From Halisarca cf. caerulea (Eukaryota; Porifera; Demospongiae; Chondrillida; Halisarcidae): a DNA stretch of 64,000 bases. The notes beneath the pieces are model-generated. The model was given only the letters and a program-made list of their open reading frames with translations, made no database searches and was not told where the DNA came from. A program made the position numbers and the translations under genes. The stretch spans positions 152,701-216,700 of the forward strand of contig CAUJGJ010000432.1 in the NCBI GenBank assembly GCA_963170055.1. The letters run 5' to 3'. Below are positions 2,161 to 57,487 of the stretch, piece after piece; the stretch's first letter is position 1; each line of letters starts with the position of its first letter.

Positions 2161-2343
2161 TGGTAGATAAAGCACATGAGTATTTCTTCCTCACAGCTTC
2201 GAGTTCTGTTTTTGTTTGGAAACTGAAACATTTTAACATAATATACAGAACACCCTACTGTATGTACAGGGTGTTCTTAACTGTGTGTATTCCGGCTTGT
2301 TTTCACTGCATATTATGTATATTTTGGTATTTTCCTTTGTGCA

Positions 2344-5300
2344 GACAAGAAAGATTGATGTATCCAGTTCTCCACTCACTGTGCATGGCTATACGAAGGT
2401 AGAGAGAACCACATGCACCTCAATGACTAGTCCTCAAAACTTCAGTCAGGACTTGTTTCGTTGTGAAACACCTCCCATGGATGTAGGGCACATGGGAACA
2501 CCTCCCATGGATGTAGGGCACGTGGGAACACCTCCCATGGATGTAGGGCACGTGGGAACACCTCCCATGGATGTAGGGCACGTGGGAACACCTCCCATGG
2601 ATGTAGGGCGCGTGGGAACACCTCCCATGGGTGTTGGGCACGTGGGAACACCTCCCATGGGTGTTGGGGGGGTGTATCATGTTGCTGAAAAGGTATCAAT
2701 CAGTGGGGAAGGACTAATTGATGAAAACCCTTTTCTTTGTGTATGTCAAAGTCCAGATTCTAACCCTTGCAACCTTACTGACAGACCAGCTACTTCTTTG
2801 CTAGCTGGTGTAGAATACTTGGAGAAGTCAACGTTCACATATGCTTCATGCAGTAATTTGGTTAAATTAAAAGGTGATACTCGATGCAAACAACAGAGTC
2901 ATTGCGACACTCCTGCTGAAGATCTACAAGTGTATGGCAGCTCAGAAACACTTTACCAACACCCTCTCCCTGATGGTGATTCAACCACTGTTGAGATGTA
3001 CACAAATAGTCCTCCTCCGAACATGCCACGCCACTCGGTGTCAGAAAAGCCTTCTCTCAGTGTCAATGATCAATCATCCTCTCAAAGGTCACACTCTGTC
3101 CTTCCGAAGAAGAGGAGGGCAAGGAGTAGAGGATTGACAAGGAAGAAGTACTGTCACAGTCAAGAGAAAGGTATTTTGGTGGAAGATGTTTGTAAACCAG
3201 AAAAGGAAGTTAATGATGTCCATGACACCAACCCTACCTCTTGCCTGGTAATGTACAAAGACAATGGTAGTATCTGCATAGATGAGAAAGGACAGTTTAA
3301 GAACATGCCTCAGCCGGAAGAGTCCACTCAAAGTGGTGATCCTTGTAAACCCCAAGCTGTTCTCTTTCTACCACCCACAGGAGTTAATCCTCCATTGCTA
3401 CCTGTCAGTGTCACAGACAACATTACTGAAACTCCTTTCAAAGCAAGATCTGGCGCTCCCAAAATGCATACCAAAGTCAGTAGACGATCAGTGCCCTTCA
3501 AAGCACCTCGCAAGGTAGAAGATGTCTCAGCAAAAGAGGAGATGACTTCCAGGAGAAAACTCCTTAGAGGTTTTGGAATTGAGCTAGATGTTACTGGGGA
3601 TGAGCAGAAGCCGCTATCTGGGTCTCCAGTTCCCTGTCTGTTTCAAACTGCAAGTGGTAAATCTTTGGAGCCTTCAGTGAAAGCGCTGACCAATGCAAGA
3701 CAGCTGCTGCAGACAGTTAATGATGAGATGAGCTCAAACGATTCCATCCCTCTCAAAGAGAAATGTAGCCTGCTTCATGTATTGGATGATGGGAATCAGA
3801 GATGTCCTGTGGGGTTTTCAACTGCCAGTGGCAAAGAAATTAGAACTTCAGAAGAGTCCATGAAGAAAGCCGCACTGATGCTGGCGGGCGACTCTTCCAT
3901 GACAGTTCAAACATTGAAAAACAACTCCCTACCTGACCCGTGTAGGGATGGTTATAATGTTGATGAGGGGGTTGAGAAGAATCTTGCCAAGTCAATGTCT
4001 GGTGCATGTGGTGAACAAGACAGAACTACTGTTGGGTTCTCAACTGCTGGAGGAAGGGCTCTGACTGTGACAGCTAGTGCTATGCAGCTGGGAAGGTCGG
4101 TTATTGACCAGTGCAGGGTCCCCACTGGCCCCATTGGCATCAGTGATGATAGTGGACGTATAGTAGCTGGATCCTCTACAGCTGGAAGGAAGCTGACTGT
4201 GTCTGTTGATTCTGTGCAGCATAGCCGTTATGTTCTGAAGGATTTAGAGATGGGAGGAGATTTAAGTGATGGTACTGTGGAGGGTGAAATGTGTGATGTG
4301 GTGGAGGGTGAATGGAGTGATAGGGCAAATGGATATCTTCCTGTAAAAACTGGAGAATCTTTAGACTTTGAGAGTTTTGCAGTGTTCACTCAGTTTCCAC
4401 CTCCAGTGTCTGCTCTGTTGGGTACTGCTCTGAACATGGACAATACCAGCTGTAACAAGCAAGATCAAGTGTCTGGTTAGTAGACTCATTCTCATTCAAA
4501 TAGTGAGAGTTCTATTTGCTATTCTCTTTTGCTTTTGTTCATTCTGCAGCAGATCTAGACTCACCAATGATCACAGGAGATGTACACACACCAGTGACAG
4601 GAGATGTACACACACCAGTGACCACAGGAGATGTACACACACCAGTAACAGGAAATGTACACACACCAGTGACCACAGGAGATGTACACACACCAGTGAC
4701 CACAGGAGATGTACACACACCAGTGACAGGAAATGTACACACACCAGTGACAGGAAATGTACACACACCAGTGACAGGAGATGTACACACACCAGTGACC
4801 ACAAGAGATGTACACACACCAGTGACCACAGGAGATGTACACACACCAGTGACCACAGAGAACACGCTATCCTCTACAATAACCTTGGATAGTTCTACTG
4901 ACCTCTTAGCTGATCTAAATACTCAAGTCATCAATGAACTCCATTCTTCTTCTACAGAGGACCCTTATTCTACCGTGACCCACCTCCGTTCTTCTACAGA
5001 GGATCCTGTGAACATTAATCTACTACAACAGAGGAAGAGTCTACTATTTTCTTGTGACCTCCCTCATCCAGGAGTAGTTTCAGAACATGTCTTGTCAACA
5101 TCAATGGCATCTTCAGTAGATTCTTCAGAATCCATCATTTCACGTAATTTGAAGTTACCATTGCTTCAAACAGCTAGTGGGAAGGCTGTGAGTATCAAGG
5201 AGGACAGTTTGCAATATGTAAGGGCTGATCTAGGCTTTAGTACTGATTTTCCTGTGTCTTTACAAACAGCAAGTGTAAGGGTTGTTGGAGTGAGTGAGGA

Positions 5301-8300
5301 CAGCTTGCAGCATGTAAAGGCTAGCTTGAGAGATGCAGTACCAAAACCTGTACAGTCAGGGTCAACAGGTATGGAGTGTGTTACCACACAACACACAACA
5401 TATGTGGAGGCTGGGGACAGATGTATTGTAGAGAGCTGTCCCAGCAAGGACACAAGGAAAGCAGGGCTTTTATCCAGGGTGTTCACCACAGCAGGTGGCA
5501 GGTCTGTGGATGTGTCACAAGAGGCCCTGCAAGCTGTAAGGTTGGGGTCAGTGGAGAGTGAAGATGTACCTGTGGATATACCCAGAAACTCACTTGGAGT
5601 AGAGTGTACTGTAGTGAGTAGCTCACTTGGAGTAGAGTGTACTGTAGTGAGTAGCTCACTTGGAGTAGAGTGTACTGTAGTGAGTAGCTCACTTGGAGAG
5701 AGTGTACTGTAGTGAGTAGTTCACTTGGAGAGAGTGTACTGTAGTGAGTAGTTCACTTGGAGAGAGTGTACTGTAGTGAGTAGCTCACTTGGAGTAGAGT
5801 GTACTGTAGTGAGTAGCTCACTTGGAGTAGAGTGTACTGTAGTGAGTAGCTCACTTGGAGAGAGTGTACTGTAGTGAGTAGTTCACTTGGAGAGAGTGTA
5901 CTGTAGTGAGTAGCTCACTTGGAGTAGAGTGTACTGTAGTGAGTAGCTCACTTGGAGAGAGTGTACTGTAGTGAGTAGCTCACTTGGAGTAGAGTGTACT
6001 GTAGTGAGTAGCTCAATTAGAGTAGAATGTGCTGTACTGAGTAGCTCAATTGGAGTAGAGTGTGCTGTAGTGAGTGGTGTACTTGGAGTAGTGTGCTGTA
6101 CTGAGTAGCTCAATTGGAGTAGAGTGTGCTGTAGTGAGTGGTGTACTTAGAGTAGTGTGCTGTACTGAGTGGTGTACTTAGAGTAGTGTGCTGAGTGAGT
6201 GGTGTACTTGGAGTACAGTGTGCTGTAGTGAGAAGGTCTGTGTCTTTTGTATCCATTGGGCCCAGGGAAATGATCCTTTGTTGCAAAAGAAAGCATCACT
6301 GGCAGAACCAATCCTTGAGTCCCTCAAACTGGCTCCTCCAGGGAGATATGCACCCAGGTTCAAACCTGGTGCTGTCACACTAAGTGCAGGAAAGGCCACC
6401 CCAACACAGACCAGCAACTCAAAGTGTCCGCAAAGTTGGTATTCTGTGCTGATCAGCGAGTGGTTTTTATCAACTGCCATTTCTTCTCTTCCTTCAGCTC
6501 CTGTATCACCATCCTTCAGACCATGCATGCACTCCACTCCAGAGGGGTTCCTTGCTGACCGGCACAACCTGAAAAAGCCATTGTGTGTGTCAGAGTTGTA
6601 CACACCGCCAATGAAGTGTGTTGTGTGTGAGCATTTGAGCAAGCAGTGGTGTTTCAGCAGACAATGACCTCTTCATACTTCATTTTCTGTAGGTCACAAA
6701 TGACCAAGTTTGTTTATTCTGTTCCATTCAAGCGAACGGTTGGCAGGGCTACTACTGGAAGTAGTAATGCATCTTCCTTACACAGATTCTATACACCAAA
6801 GTCAAGTGTTGACTCATCAGGGAACACACCCACTAGTGCTCAGACCACACCCACCAGTGCTCAGACCATACCCACTAGTGCTCAGACCACACCCACCAGA
6901 GCTCAAACCATACCCACCAGTGGTCGGCTCGTGCCTAACAGTGCTCAGACCACACCCACCAGTGCTCAGACCATACCCACTAGTGCTCAGACCACACCCA
7001 CTAGTTCTCAAACCATACCCACCAGTGGTCGGCTCGTGCCTAACAGTGCTCAGACCACACCCACCAGTGCTCAGACCATACCCACTAGTGCTCAGACCAC
7101 ACCCACTAGTGCTCAGACCACACCCACCAGTGCTCAGACCATACCCACTAGTGCTCAGACCACACCCACTAGTGCTCAAACCATACCCACCAGTGGTCGG
7201 CTTGTGCCTAACAGTGCTCAGACAACACCCACCAGTGATCCAGTCATGCCCACTAGTGCTCAGGCCCCACCCACCGTCAACAAAATCTCCACTGGCTGTT
7301 CTACTGAACCTCCTCAGTCTCCTGTCTTGAGGTCATTGTGTGCAAAGACAAGTTTTCAGGACATATCCTCAGAGGTAAGACTGATTGCCCATTTTGTCTT
7401 GTACCAGTCTTGCCATGTTGCCCCTATAGGCCAAGGAAGACCTTCACCTCTCAGAGAGCCAGTTGACACTGTTCATGAATATGACTCAAATGGAAGAGGG
7501 TAGTTTTGGAGACAGGGGTTGTAATGTCTCACATGGGGGGTACAATCTCACAGAAGTGTCCCTTCTCCATCCATCACACTCTCTTAACCCTGTCTGCAAG
7601 TCTATTGATGTTTTAATGGAGGACTCAGGCATAGGGACATTCCCCACCTCCCGGGACACCTCCAAGCATAGCCCTGAGATAGCAGAAGCACAGCTGTCTC
7701 TTAAAAGCAAGAGATCAAACCTCATCAGCCACTTGGAACCACGATCTAAACAGTTGAGAACTGATGTGGACGTCCATAATAGCACAATGGCTACTTTAGT
7801 CAATGAAAGGAGTGTTACCAGGACTGATGGAAGAGTGCGTCCTCAGGATGGCCTGTTGTACTCCCTGAGGAGGACTTTTCGAAGGTCTTTGACACCCTTG
7901 AGTAGACTAGGTGGTAGGTACGGTCCTATCACCTCAATAGAGCAGGTAGGGGAGGTCCCTTCTGAGTTGTACCATCTTCACAATGCAGTACTTCTTTCCC
8001 TACCTCAGCTGCTGTCAATGGGCATTCATCCTTCAGTGCTGACAGCCTCTATAGACAGATCTGCAGAGTTCCGGTTCCCAGGGCATCTCCAATTCAGCAG
8101 TTCCATCATCCAAGGTCAGCCTGTTAGGATTGGTGATGGTGCTGTGCTCCATCTTGGAGAGGACTCCTGTGCTGGGGCTACTGAGTTCGAAAGGTTATCT
8201 GCATTCTCTGAGTTAACTAGCATGTGTAGTGTTGCACGCGCGCGTGTGTGTGTGTGTGTGTGCTTGCATGCTTGTGAGTGTGCACTCACAAGCATCTATT

Positions 8301-11311: not shown

Positions 11312-40765
<29,454 letters not shown>

Positions 40766-45619: not shown

Positions 45620-46801
45620 ATGAAGCTGTTTCGTTTTGCTTTAGTATTGGCCGTCGTTGTTCCCACATTGATCTGTGGAGAAGGCTCCCTTGCAGACGTG
45701 TCAACCGCAAGCGAGGACGAGGAGCTTGTTGGAGGAAGAGACGTCCCCGAAGATCGGCCGTGCGGATTCAAACAGCTCTTGAGGGAGACGGAGAGGCCAC
45801 TTGACGACTATGGGTACGTGTGTCTTGTGGTGAACGCTTTCCTCTTTGAAGAGATGTGGTAATACCGTAGACACTCTTTTTCCACAGGCCAAACGTCTGT
45901 CAAAGGAGAGCTGTTTACATGGAATCGCGCTCTGAATGCACCTATCGACGTGTCTGCCGCAGACAGAGGCAGAGCTTCCATTGCTGGTATGTAGCGGAGT
46001 GTTCTGTGCATGTTATCTATCATGCTTTGTGTGTGCACGTGGGGGCTGCAAGTGATCACCATGAGTATGGCAGCGCTACACCAGGGGTGGGGGCACTGGC
46101 AAATGATATTGGGCAGACAAGTCAGTAATCAGCAACAATTGCAGCAGCTGTTCACCTACTGCTGTGTACGTGTGAGCACCTACTGCTGTGTCCGTGTGAG
46201 CACCTACTGCTGTGTACGTGTGAGCACCTACTGCTGTGTCCGTGTGAGCACCTACTGCTGTGTACGTGTGAGCACCTACTGCTGTGTACGTGTGAGCACC
46301 TACTGCTGTGTCCGTGTGAGCACCTACTGCTGTGTCCGTGTGAGCACCTACTGCTGTGTCCGTGTGAGCACCTACTGCTGTGTCCGTGTGAGCACCTACT
46401 GCTGTGTCCATGTGAGCACCTACTGCTGTGTCCGTGTGAGCACCTACTGCTGTGTCCGTGTGAGCACCTACTACTGTGTACGTGTGAGTACCTACTGCTG
46501 TGTTGCTATGTATGTGTCTGCTCTGAAGTTCCTGTCATCTCATCCTGTGTGGCTCAGTGTGTGTATTGTTGTAGGGCTTTGCAGGTGTGTCAAGAGCTGT
46601 TGTTATGTGTTCCTGTCCAGACTTGTTTGAGGGGGCAAAGCATATCATATTGTTCTCTAATAATCACATGTGCATCTAAGGCTTCCTCACCTTTGTCATC
46701 TACAAACAGCCATTCTTGTTAGTGCATTCTACAAAGGCTGGAATGCTCATGTGTACAAGCATGTACGTGCATACACACCCACACACACACACACACGCAC
46801 G

Positions 46802-46851
<50 letters not shown>

Positions 46852-49014
46852 TACATACACATGCATACATACACACACATACATACAGGGTGACATAATA
46901 GCTGTTTCCTTCAGGTATGTTTGCAGAGGAGGCAAGAAGTGTACAACTTATGAGACAATATACACATTTGAGCCAGTTTGCTGCAGTGGATATGCCAGCC
47001 ATGTGTCAGCATTTGTTGCCAGTCAATCAGCTGATGTGGACCAGGTGTTGAGAGACGAGGGATGCGTAGTGGGTAAGCAGGTAGTCCACATGACTCAAGC
47101 ACTCTTAACTGCTGTTTTTGCTGATAGAAAACAAACCTATTGTCAAGGCAACCTGTCTAATCAGAACTGGTTCTGTACAAGGGAATATCACAATCACACA
47201 AGCTGTGAGTGGATATGTGCATCACTTCCTGTCACATTCTGCACACGTCACTTCCTGTCAGTCTATACACACATCACTGCTCACAGTCTGTACACACATC
47301 ACTGCTCAGTCTGTACACACATCACTGCTCACAGTCTGTACGCACATCACTCCTCAGTCTGTACACACATCACTGCTCAGTCTGTACACACATCACTTCT
47401 CAGTCTGTACACACATCACTGCTCAGTCTGTACACACATCACTGCTCAGTCTGTACACACATCACTGCTCAGTCTGTACACACATCACTGCTCAGTCTGT
47501 ACACACATCACTGCTCAGTCTGTACACACACCACTGCTCAGTCTGTACACACATCACTGCTCAGTCTGTACACACATCAGCTGTTTGTTGCTGTGGTAGA
47601 ATGTAACATCCATGGCTGAAATCACTGGAGTGGTGGAAGGACTGGAACCTGGTCAGCATGGCTTCCACATTCATGAGTATGGCAACTTCCAAGAAGGTGA
47701 TCCACTTGTTTGCACAGTGTAATTTCTGAACTGTTGATGTGTGTGGTCGTGTGATGTTGATGTGTGTGGTTGTGTAACGTCTGCACTGTGGATGTGTGCT
47801 GTGTAGGTTGCGGTGATGCTGGTGGACACTACAACCCATTTGGTACAGTCCATGGAGCTCCTGATGCAGCAGTGAGGTTAGAAACATGCACCCTTGTGTG
47901 TTCATGTGCCCAGTTCCATGCACCCTCAACCTGTGTGTTCATGTGCCCAGTTCCATGCACCCTCAACCTGTGTGCTTGTGTGCCCAGTTCCATGCACCCT
48001 CAACCTGTGTTCATGTACCCAGTTCCATGCACCCTCAACCTGTGTTCATGTGCCCGGTTCCATGCACTCTCAACCTGTGTGCTTGTGTGCCCGGTTCCAT
48101 GCACCCTCAACCTGTGTGTTCGTGTGCCCAGTTCCATGCACCCTCAACCTGTGTGCTTGTGTGCCCGGTTCCATGCACCCTCAACCTGTGTGTTCATGTG
48201 CCCGGTTCCATGCACCCTCAACCTGTGTGCTTGTGTGCCCGGTTCCATGCACCCTCAACCTGTGTGCTTGTGTGCCCAGTTCCATGCACCCTCAACCTGT
48301 GTGTTCATGTGCCCGGTTCCATGCACCCTCAACCTGTGTGTTCATGTGCCCGGTTCCATGCACCCTCAACCTGTGTGTTCATGTGCCCGGTTCCATGCAC
48401 CCTCAACCTGTGTGTTCATGTGCCCGGTTCCATGCACCCTCAACCTGTGTGTTCATGTGCCCAGTTCCATGCACTCTCAACCTGTGTGTTCATGTGCCTA
48501 GTTCCATGCACTCTCAACCTGTGTGTTCATGTGCCCGGTTCCATGCACCCTCCACCTGTGTTCATGTGCCCAGTTCCATGCACCCTCAACCTGTGTTCAT
48601 GTGCCCGGTTCCATGCACCCTCAACCTGTGTTCATGTGCCCGGTTCCATGCACCCTCAACCTGTGTGTTCATGTGCGCGGTTCCATGCACCCTCAACCTG
48701 TACAGACATGTTGGGGATCTCGGAAACATAGAAGCTGATGGGAGTGGACAGGCTACCATATCCATCACAGATCACATGGTTAAGTTGAATGGACCAATCT
48801 CTGTCATTGGGCGGTCTTTTGTGGTAAGCACTAAAGCCCATACATTGTGATGTCTGTGGCACTATCATGTGACTGTCATGTGACTACCATCTTCTTGTCT
48901 TAGGTGCATTCTGGAGTGGATGATCTCGGTTTGGGCGGAGTCCCGGCCAGTCTGACCACCGGCAATGCAGGGGGGCGTGTCGGTTGCTGCACTATTTCCA
49001 TAGCTAGACCCTGA
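45620..49014 (+). CDS. Secreted Cu/Zn superoxide dismutase with N-terminal EMI-like module
   Basis: Converts superoxide to hydrogen peroxide and oxygen outside the cell. Exons 45620-45813, 45888-45986, 46915-47072, 47128-47204, 47600-47696, 47807-47876, 48706-48823, 48904-49014 keep phase and give 307 residues. Residues 1-20 are a signal peptide ([20 protein letters not shown]). Exons 2-3 encode a Cys-rich module, [20 protein letters not shown] to [13 protein letters not shown], resembling an EMI domain (start NVC, end CC-x-GY). The SOD domain follows with all metal ligands: [32 protein letters not shown] (His and Asp), [10 protein letters not shown]. The disulfide Cys (EGCGDAG, VGCC) and catalytic Arg (GNAGGRVGC) are present, so activity is expected. 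Three introns are tandem arrays. The EMI assignment is by pattern only. Confidence 0.9.
46140..46505 (+). repeat. 24-bp minisatellite in SOD intron
   Basis: About 15 units of TGTGTCCGTGTGAGCACCTA plus CTGC (CGTG/ACGTG variants). Confidence 0.95.
46780..46890. repeat. (CA)n microsatellite
   Basis: CA-rich tract with ACAT interruptions in the same SOD intron, ending shortly before the acceptor at 46914. Confidence 0.95.
47255..47580 (+). repeat. 23-bp minisatellite in SOD intron
   Basis: About 13 units of AGTCTGTACACACATCACTG plus CTC, filling intron 47205-47599. Confidence 0.95.
47885..48705 (+). repeat. About 37-bp minisatellite in SOD intron
   Basis: About 22 units combining TTCCATGCACCCTCAACCTG with TGTGTTCATGTGCCCGG. 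The array runs from a few bases after the donor (47877) to the acceptor CTGTACAG (48698-48705); the last unit is part of the 3' splice region. Confidence 0.95.
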
Positions 49015-49562: not shown

Positions 49563-56201
<6,639 letters not shown>

Positions 56202-56833
56202 CCTACTCCTTATCGACCTAACTTCGAATTAAGCTATTTGGCCGGAGGAAGAGTGACAGGTGCTCGTCGTGGGTATGGGTATCTACGCGTACGGTAATCA
56301 TGATAACCAGCCCTCAGTCCGCCATTTTTTATCCCGACAAACAACTATAATAAAATGGCGGCAGTGAAAAATGGAGGCGAGAATGGGGTCTATGCGACGT
56401 GAGACTAGTGGGTGGGTAGCTATAAAGGGTCTATGGTCTAGAGCCACAATGGTATGACAATGCGTTGGCATTGTGCCCTGGACGGTCTCCCTCTCACGCC
56501 ATAGCCGTCTCCAGGGACGGTCTAGCCAACTAGACTAAACTGAGAAAGAAACAAGACGGTCTGTGGCTGTGAAAATACACTAATAATAGTCTTCAGTAGA
56601 CAAACCTCCCATGCCTACACGAACTAATCACCACACAACTCCAGGGACTATCACATGTAGATCTAAACCTTCTATTATCATTTACTCAATTGCAATATAA
56701 ACAATTGTGCACCACATACTGAAAATTCAAAACAATTGCAACCTTTACACTGTAAAATAAACAATAGTACTTTAATACAATTGTGCCTCTCGTGTACTGT
56801 ACATGCAAGTAAAGTTGTGTGAAGTTTGAAGTG
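56202..56833. other. RECQL5 upstream / RAB9 downstream spacer
   Basis: No gene seen. 56280-56409 resembles half of a TAGTC-type MITE (it ends GACGTGAGACTA and contains CGCCATTTTTTATCCCGAC and AAAATGGCGGC). A matching left end was not found. GGATGGCGATGGC on the minus strand (near 56190-56202) overlaps the RECQL5 start and is YY1-like. TTTAAT at 56771-56776 reads ATTAAA on the minus strand, a possible RAB9 poly(A) signal. Confidence 0.45.
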
Positions 56834-57460
56834 TTACCGACAGCATCCTCCTGTCCTGTTGACTGTGATCTGGTTCTCCAGGCCAAACCCGTTGGACAAA
56901 TCTGTTCGTTTCTTATCTGAGCTTAGCTCTATCCTGTTCTTCTCCACCAGAGTCTTTACAGCAGCGTGGAAAGCCTGCTCGACATTGGTTGCAGTCTTTG
57001 CACTGGTCTCAAAGTGCTTCAGGTCGCCATTTTCCTGGCACCACCTCCGTACCATGGCTGGATCGACCCTGGCATCATCAACATCCACCTTATTCCCTAC
57101 AATAACAAAAGGGAAACTCTCTTGGTCTTCTACATCAGCATAATAGAAGAACTCTTTCTGCCACATTGACAAGTTGAGGAAGCTTCTCTCATCGTCAACT
57201 GCATATACCAGCATGCAACAATCTGTTCCTCTGTAGAAGGGTGTACGTAGCGACTTGAACCGCTCCTGGCCCGCTGTGTCCCATATCTGTAACGTGTAAT
57301 GAACGTCGTCCACTACCAACTCTTTGGTAAGGAACTCCACTCCAATGGTGTGGTAGTGATTTGAGTCGAACGTGTTGTTAACAAACCGCTGCATTAAGGA
57401 CGATTTCCCAACACCTCCATCTCCTAGAAGAACAGCCTTAAGAATAACCGGTCTTGACAT
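56834..57460 (-). CDS. RAB9: RAB9 small GTPase
   Basis: Late-endosome Rab that directs mannose-6-phosphate-receptor traffic back to the trans-Golgi. Single coding exon of 208 residues. G1 GDGGVGKSS, switch I HTIGVEFLTKEL, G3 WDTAGQERF, RabF-like SLRTPFYRGTDCCMLVYAVD, G4 GNKVD and G5 ETSAK are all intact. KEFFYYADVEDQESFPFVI is specific to RAB9 among Rabs. The chosen start (MSRPVILK) matches the usual RAB9 N-terminal length; an ATG nine codons upstream (57487) is also in frame. The C-terminus is TGGCCR, giving two prenylatable Cys followed by one Arg, whereas RAB9 usually ends in CC. Confidence 0.93.
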   Translation of the reverse strand: MSRPVILKAVLLGDGGVGKSSLMQRFVNNTFDSNHYHTIGVEFLTKELVVDDVHYTLQIWDTAGQERFKSLRTPFYRGTDCCMLVYAVDDERSFLNLSMWQKEFFYYADVEDQESFPFVIVGNKVDVDDARVDPAMVRRWCQENGDLKHFETSAKTATNVEQAFHAAVKTLVEKNRIELSSDKKRTDLSNGFGLENQITVNRTGGCCR

Positions 57461-57487
57461 GTCTAGAGATGTAGGCCTTTGTAACAA

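Follow-up and report, generated by a model that had tools for sequence, protein, structure and literature searches.

Gene content and gene structure

The window, i.e. the whole stretch of 64 000 nt of Halisarca cf. caerulea DNA that was analyzed, contains a gene for a Cu/Zn superoxide dismutase (SOD) in which the enzyme domain is preceded by a cysteine-rich module (Table 1). Splicing of its exons yields an in-frame coding sequence of 924 nt with a product of 307 aa plus stop. An earlier interpretation made from the letters alone (the sequence-only reading) had proposed an in-phase gene of eight exons at this site, and we recovered exactly the same coordinates with GT-AG introns throughout. Three introns of the gene carry different minisatellites, with repeat units of 24 bp (14.6 copies), 23 bp (13.8 copies, 47258-47579) and 37 bp (22.1 copies).

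Further genes were recognized in the window: BRCA2 repeats in two long frames (Pfam E-values 1.4e-10 and 3.8e-11) probably mark a BRCA2 gene, and frames with ZZ, RCC1 and HECT domains (Pfam) presumably belong to one large HERC-type ubiquitin ligase. The opposite strand carries a DEAD-box helicase frame and a Ras-family GTPase frame (Pfam), which we take to be RecQ-like and Rab9-like, respectively. Also, one tRNA gene was detected with 65.5 bits.

Table 1. Features of the window and subdivision of the SOD gene
Feature	Position	Strand	Remarks
Frames with BRCA2 repeats	2237-5712	+	
tRNA gene	24926-24997	+	
Frames with ZZ, RCC1, HECT domains	28321-40765	+	
SOD gene	45620-49014	+	8 exons, all 7 introns GT...AG
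Exon 1	45620-45813	+	
Exon 2	45888-45986	+	
Intron 2	45987-46914	+	24-bp tandem array 46153-46503; CA-type repeats 46773-46887
Exon 3	46915-47072	+	
Intron 3	47073-47127	+	55 nt; splits codon 151 between module and SOD; kept in P0001 message
Exon 4	47128-47204	+	
Exon 5	47600-47696	+	
Exon 6	47807-47876	+	
Intron 6	47877-48705	+	37-bp tandem array 47895-48701 fills nearly the whole intron
Exon 7	48706-48823	+	
Exon 8	48904-49014	+	
Signal-peptide-like N-terminus, residues 1-20	45620-45679	+	hydrophobic, judged by eye
Acidic stretch, residues 21-63	45680-45808	+	net -8; first module cysteine C48
Basic Cys-rich module core, residues 64-124	45809-46993	+	YGPNVC...CCSGY, net +7; exon 1 end, exon 2, exon 3 start, interrupted by introns 1 and 2
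Module tail and linker, residues 125-150	46994-47072	+	last module cysteine C148 (DEGC)
Cu/Zn-SOD part	47128-49014	+	exons 4-8; ends IARP + stop
DEAD-box helicase and Ras-family GTPase frames	55035-57487	-	

Spliced products

Two database proteins correspond to products of the SOD gene. One of them, P0002 (232 aa; 6 members and 3 contigs), is fully identical to residues 76-307. The other, P0001 (194 aa; 2 members and 1 contig), agrees in 194 of 194 residues with a product from which introns 1, 2 and 4 have been removed and in which intron 3 is kept, and it ends at a stop that is created across the exon 4/5 junction. Since neither of them can be obtained from the DNA read unspliced, we infer that both come from RNA, the alternative being a splicing gene predictor applied to DNA. 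The start of P0002 is an internal Met, and its sequence is exactly what a message retaining intron 1 would give if read from the first Met: the protein represents either a 5′-incomplete contig or an intron 1-keeping message, for which a downstream start is possible. The joining of exons 1, 2 and 3 is supported by P0001 and by the full-length record of Halisarca dujardinii (P0003, see below). The sequence-only reading had named transcripts that skip exons 2-3 as the outcome that would count against it; none were seen, and P0001 has the three exons joined.

Relatives and distribution

The closest named relative that we found for the SOD gene is P0003 from H. dujardinii (nr, 'Cu/Zn superoxide dismutase-like 1'), a protein of 307 aa with 67% identity to the window protein. 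It has the same length, architecture, module cysteines and SOD ligands. P0004 (305 aa) is 55% identical to P0003 over the full length, and its module is 60% identical to that of the window protein. All 10 module cysteines align in the three proteins. Because the same layout recurs in P0003 and P0004 it is not a product of chance: the gene and the fusion of module and SOD are real and conserved. In a tree of 95 rows the SOD domains of the three proteins form one well-supported group (100/97), the deep forks of this tree being weakly resolved and SOD3 standing on a long branch.

With the module region as query, P0001, P0002 and P0003 alone came up, and P0004, which a full-length profile recovered, was missed; it therefore does not follow that the module is absent from other sponges or animals. 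A filter for cysteine-rich front parts, which left out seven proteins without HGFHVH-type motif (P0001 among them), flagged eight proteins among the 120 listed of 4430 matches, and inspection by eye showed this module in P0002, P0003 and P0004 only. In the genome (194.47 Mb searched, 454 contigs) the module occurs once: the search gave two matches, both of them exons of the SOD gene, and found no paralogs.

The H. dujardinii ortholog is already present in a public database under an SOD name. For the architecture itself, be it called an EMI-SOD or a module-SOD fusion, no description was found in open-licence PMC papers, nor was an account of the SOD gene in Halisarca, which agrees with the earlier remark that the architecture is not known as a described family.

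Two more SOD-like genes were located in the same genome. L001 (G000:C121:182121-183022) is an ordinary SOD1-like gene whose product starts with MEAICVLRG..., which is not of the signal type, and is 56% identical to P0003 over the main exon. In the third gene, L019 (its SOD-like part lies at G000:C311:20191-20532), the copper-ligand motifs HVH, GGHFNP and VIHF are kept and the zinc ligands H71 and H80 are absent, both as judged by eye. Another SOD-like start lies downstream. The very long open frame at this site is caused by N letters. We take the layout of L019 to resemble that of copper-only SOD-repeat proteins.

The SOD domain

Residues 167-302 match Pfam Sod_Cu with an E-value of 3e-43 and 147.8 bits (cut-off 28.9). 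The window protein and P0003 keep the equivalents of human SOD1 H46, H48, H63, H71, H80, D83, H120 and R143 as well as the C57/C146 pair; the SOD1 chain used as reference is a variant that has Ser at position 83. With the Sod_Cu match and all metal ligands in place, the window protein has the complete SOD domain that the sequence-only reading had ascribed to it. P0004 carries Ala at the zinc-ligand Asp position (SOD1 D83), which means that some members may lack full Cu/Zn chemistry. In the window protein SOD1 lysines 122 and 136 are replaced by G and T. NCBIfam returned three bacterial SOD models, each below its own cut-off, for each of P0003 and P0004.

Two further cysteines of the SOD part, one at the position of SOD1 C6 (C160) and one following C146 (C300), are the counterparts of C45 and C190 in human SOD3, which form a pair in that enzyme. 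We applied a crude pattern test to the 104 proteins in which both sites were readable, among the 120 listed of 4430 matches: 20 have both extra cysteines (including P0002, P0003 and P0004), 17 the first alone, 3 the second alone and 64 neither. The chain stops at IARP straight after the SOD domain without a basic tail, so that the heparin-binding tail of vertebrate SOD3 is missing; the sequence-only reading had proposed placement by other means than this tail.

The cysteine-rich module

The front part had been read as a secretion-type start followed by a cysteine-rich module with the motifs PNVC and CCSGY. Both motifs are present in the translation, and the N-terminus is signal-like and hydrophobic when judged by eye. 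The net charge of the module is +7 in the window protein, +6 in P0003 and +11 in P0004, with acidic flanks; the SOD part is acidic with net charges of -7, -5 and -6, respectively. Among all 12-residue stretches of the window protein the most basic one falls inside the module, and a dense positive patch in the N-terminal region reads RRVCRRQR.

No other domain family was matched by the module in Pfam, NCBIfam and a PDB sequence search. The PDB search with a module profile gave six endoglucanase sequences with E-values of 0.55-0.58, which is chance level. An AlphaFold model of P0003 (50 sequences) was confident in the SOD domain and poor in the module, with pLDDT mostly below 55, and a model of P0001 (4 sequences) reached a mean pLDDT of 39. 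Neither model gave a usable fold of the module, for which the sequence-only reading had suggested a comparison with EMI folds. A Foldseek search with the P0003 model returned SODs in the best 50 of 463 rows.

Possible relation to EMI domains

The module had been called EMI-like. The end motifs and some alignments to TGFBI speak for this, whereas the Pfam EMI model and our own EMI profiles do not. It is possible but in our view rather unlikely that the module is a diverged TGFBI/periostin-type EMI domain which, by binding matrix proteins or multimerising with them, would build the SOD into a protein network. The three modules start with GPNVC and end with CCSGY, CCSGF or CCKGF (CC-x-G-Y/F). The EMI domains of TGFBI and periostin (5nv6, 5yjg) share the GPNVC start and a later GCP with the module and end with CCPGY; compared with them the middle of the module is longer and there are additional cysteines, and profiles do not join the two. 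The end pattern, which was chosen post hoc, matches each of the three modules and all six EMI domains used, in comparison to 42 of 300000 module shuffles. A better EMI candidate is found elsewhere in the genome (L006, positions 1501-1647, G000:C30; RVCPRQ...CTRYRTQY), with a Pfam EMI E-value of 0.00037 and 21.6 bits, just below the cut-off of 25; the end pattern does not fit this partial sequence.

We compared the modules with EMI segments, four of the six sequences being provisional. When gaps were cheap, 2, 0 and 6 of 5000 cysteine-preserving shuffles aligned as well as the three modules to the EMI domain of TGFBI, which is confirmed in the PDB, and SMB, EGF and Kazal controls did not beat shuffles in the same test. 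However, the numbers rose to 15, 23 and 335 of 5000 under ordinary gap costs, and to 64, 800 and 1141 when GPNVC was omitted. Alignments to EMILIN1 and MMRN1 were mostly unremarkable. A profile built from the three modules scored the six EMI domains with 1.9-8.0 bits and controls with 0.5-1.5 bits, a faint trend; in terms of shuffles it gave 3/2000 for EMILIN1 and 113-329/2000 for the other five.

In the reverse direction the profiles did not recover the modules. A profile of the six EMI domains, which finds each left-out EMI with 0 of 3000 shuffles as good, was matched as well by 599, 90 and 1035 of 3000 shuffles as by the three modules; with fixed cysteines the numbers were 326, 49 and 506 of 2000. 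For a TGFBI/periostin profile 1366, 1736 and 1385 of 2000 shuffles were as good, although this profile is weak on true EMI domains too (MEGF10 344/2000, EMILIN1 74/2000). A profile-profile comparison aligned 12 columns with a probability of 8.8%. The Pfam EMI search that the sequence-only reading had recommended for the module gave no match at E-values up to 10, a test of little power because the same model also misses the real EMI domain of TGFBI. Taken together, the EMI label for the module is unproven. The end motifs and some of the pairwise alignments favour what would be a distant link to TGFBI/periostin-type EMI, and we put common ancestry of module and EMI at slightly less than an even chance, which is a broader claim than that the module also functions like an EMI domain.

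Proposed function of the fused protein

We propose, with about even confidence, that the gene encodes an extracellular Cu/Zn SOD whose front module would fold with its own disulfides and hold the enzyme to anionic polysaccharide of the matrix or the cell surface. The signal-like N-terminus suggests that the protein is secreted, the module probably folds via its own disulfides, and the C-terminal SOD domain with its complete metal ligands would be enzymatically active. The acidic-basic-acidic layout of the chain suggests electrostatic binding of polyanions via the basic module; a basic patch by itself is weak evidence for such binding. From charge and N-terminus together we infer that the enzyme may be placed at the matrix or the surface.

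The N-terminal module would then do the job of the polycationic C-terminal segment in vertebrate SOD3. The sponge protein shares with SOD3 (2jlp) what would be a signal-type start, the Cu/Zn-SOD domain and counterparts of C45, C107, C189 and C190. Since it contains no counterpart of C195, which we take to be the cysteine behind the inactive form of human EC-SOD, it would be expected to form the active disulfide pairing only. Human EC-SOD occurs in active and inactive disulfide forms, and species without one cysteine make the active form only (PMC2100054). The polycationic C-terminal domain of SOD3 mediates its binding to heparan sulfate, collagen and hyaluronan (PMC12937663), whereas the basic part of the sponge protein is N-terminal and cysteine-rich.

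In a stricter version the module would be an undescribed disulfide-rich domain, distinct from EMI, that replaces the vertebrate heparin-binding tail as the anchor of SOD in these sponges, and retention of intron 3 could give an enzyme-free anchor; this combination of claims we consider unlikely. It is improbable that the front part serves as a pro-domain or an aid to folding which is removed or inert after secretion, leaving the SOD to act as a free secreted enzyme. The many Arg pairs, and a basic module coming after an acidic stretch, would be compatible with processing, and in other animals there are secreted SODs that work without a module of this kind (184-aa forms are listed). Examples are the spider secreted-type SODs P0020-P0022, which have 184 aa and the same CC pair, show 61-62% identity to P0003 over 49% of P0003, and have no cysteine-rich front part flagged by our filter. 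However, the three sequences agree in all 10 cysteines and in much of the module, which is more conservation than a discarded part would call for. Finally, a separate functional module-only protein through retention of intron 3 is highly improbable: P0001 matches exactly such a product, with introns 1, 2 and 4 spliced, and the intron sits between module and SOD, but P0001 is one contig with two member sequences, an intron of 55 nt can easily be retained accidentally, and three more junctions follow the one between exons 4 and 5 that holds the stop, which would make decay of the message likely.

Our preferred reading remains an extracellular SOD that is held by its N-terminal module. If the module binds matrix, animals would have at least two structurally distinct solutions for anchoring extracellular superoxide removal, placed at opposite ends of one enzyme fold. 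The way in which extracellular SOD is localised, and the reason for it, could then be tested outside the vertebrates, in an early-branching group of animals.
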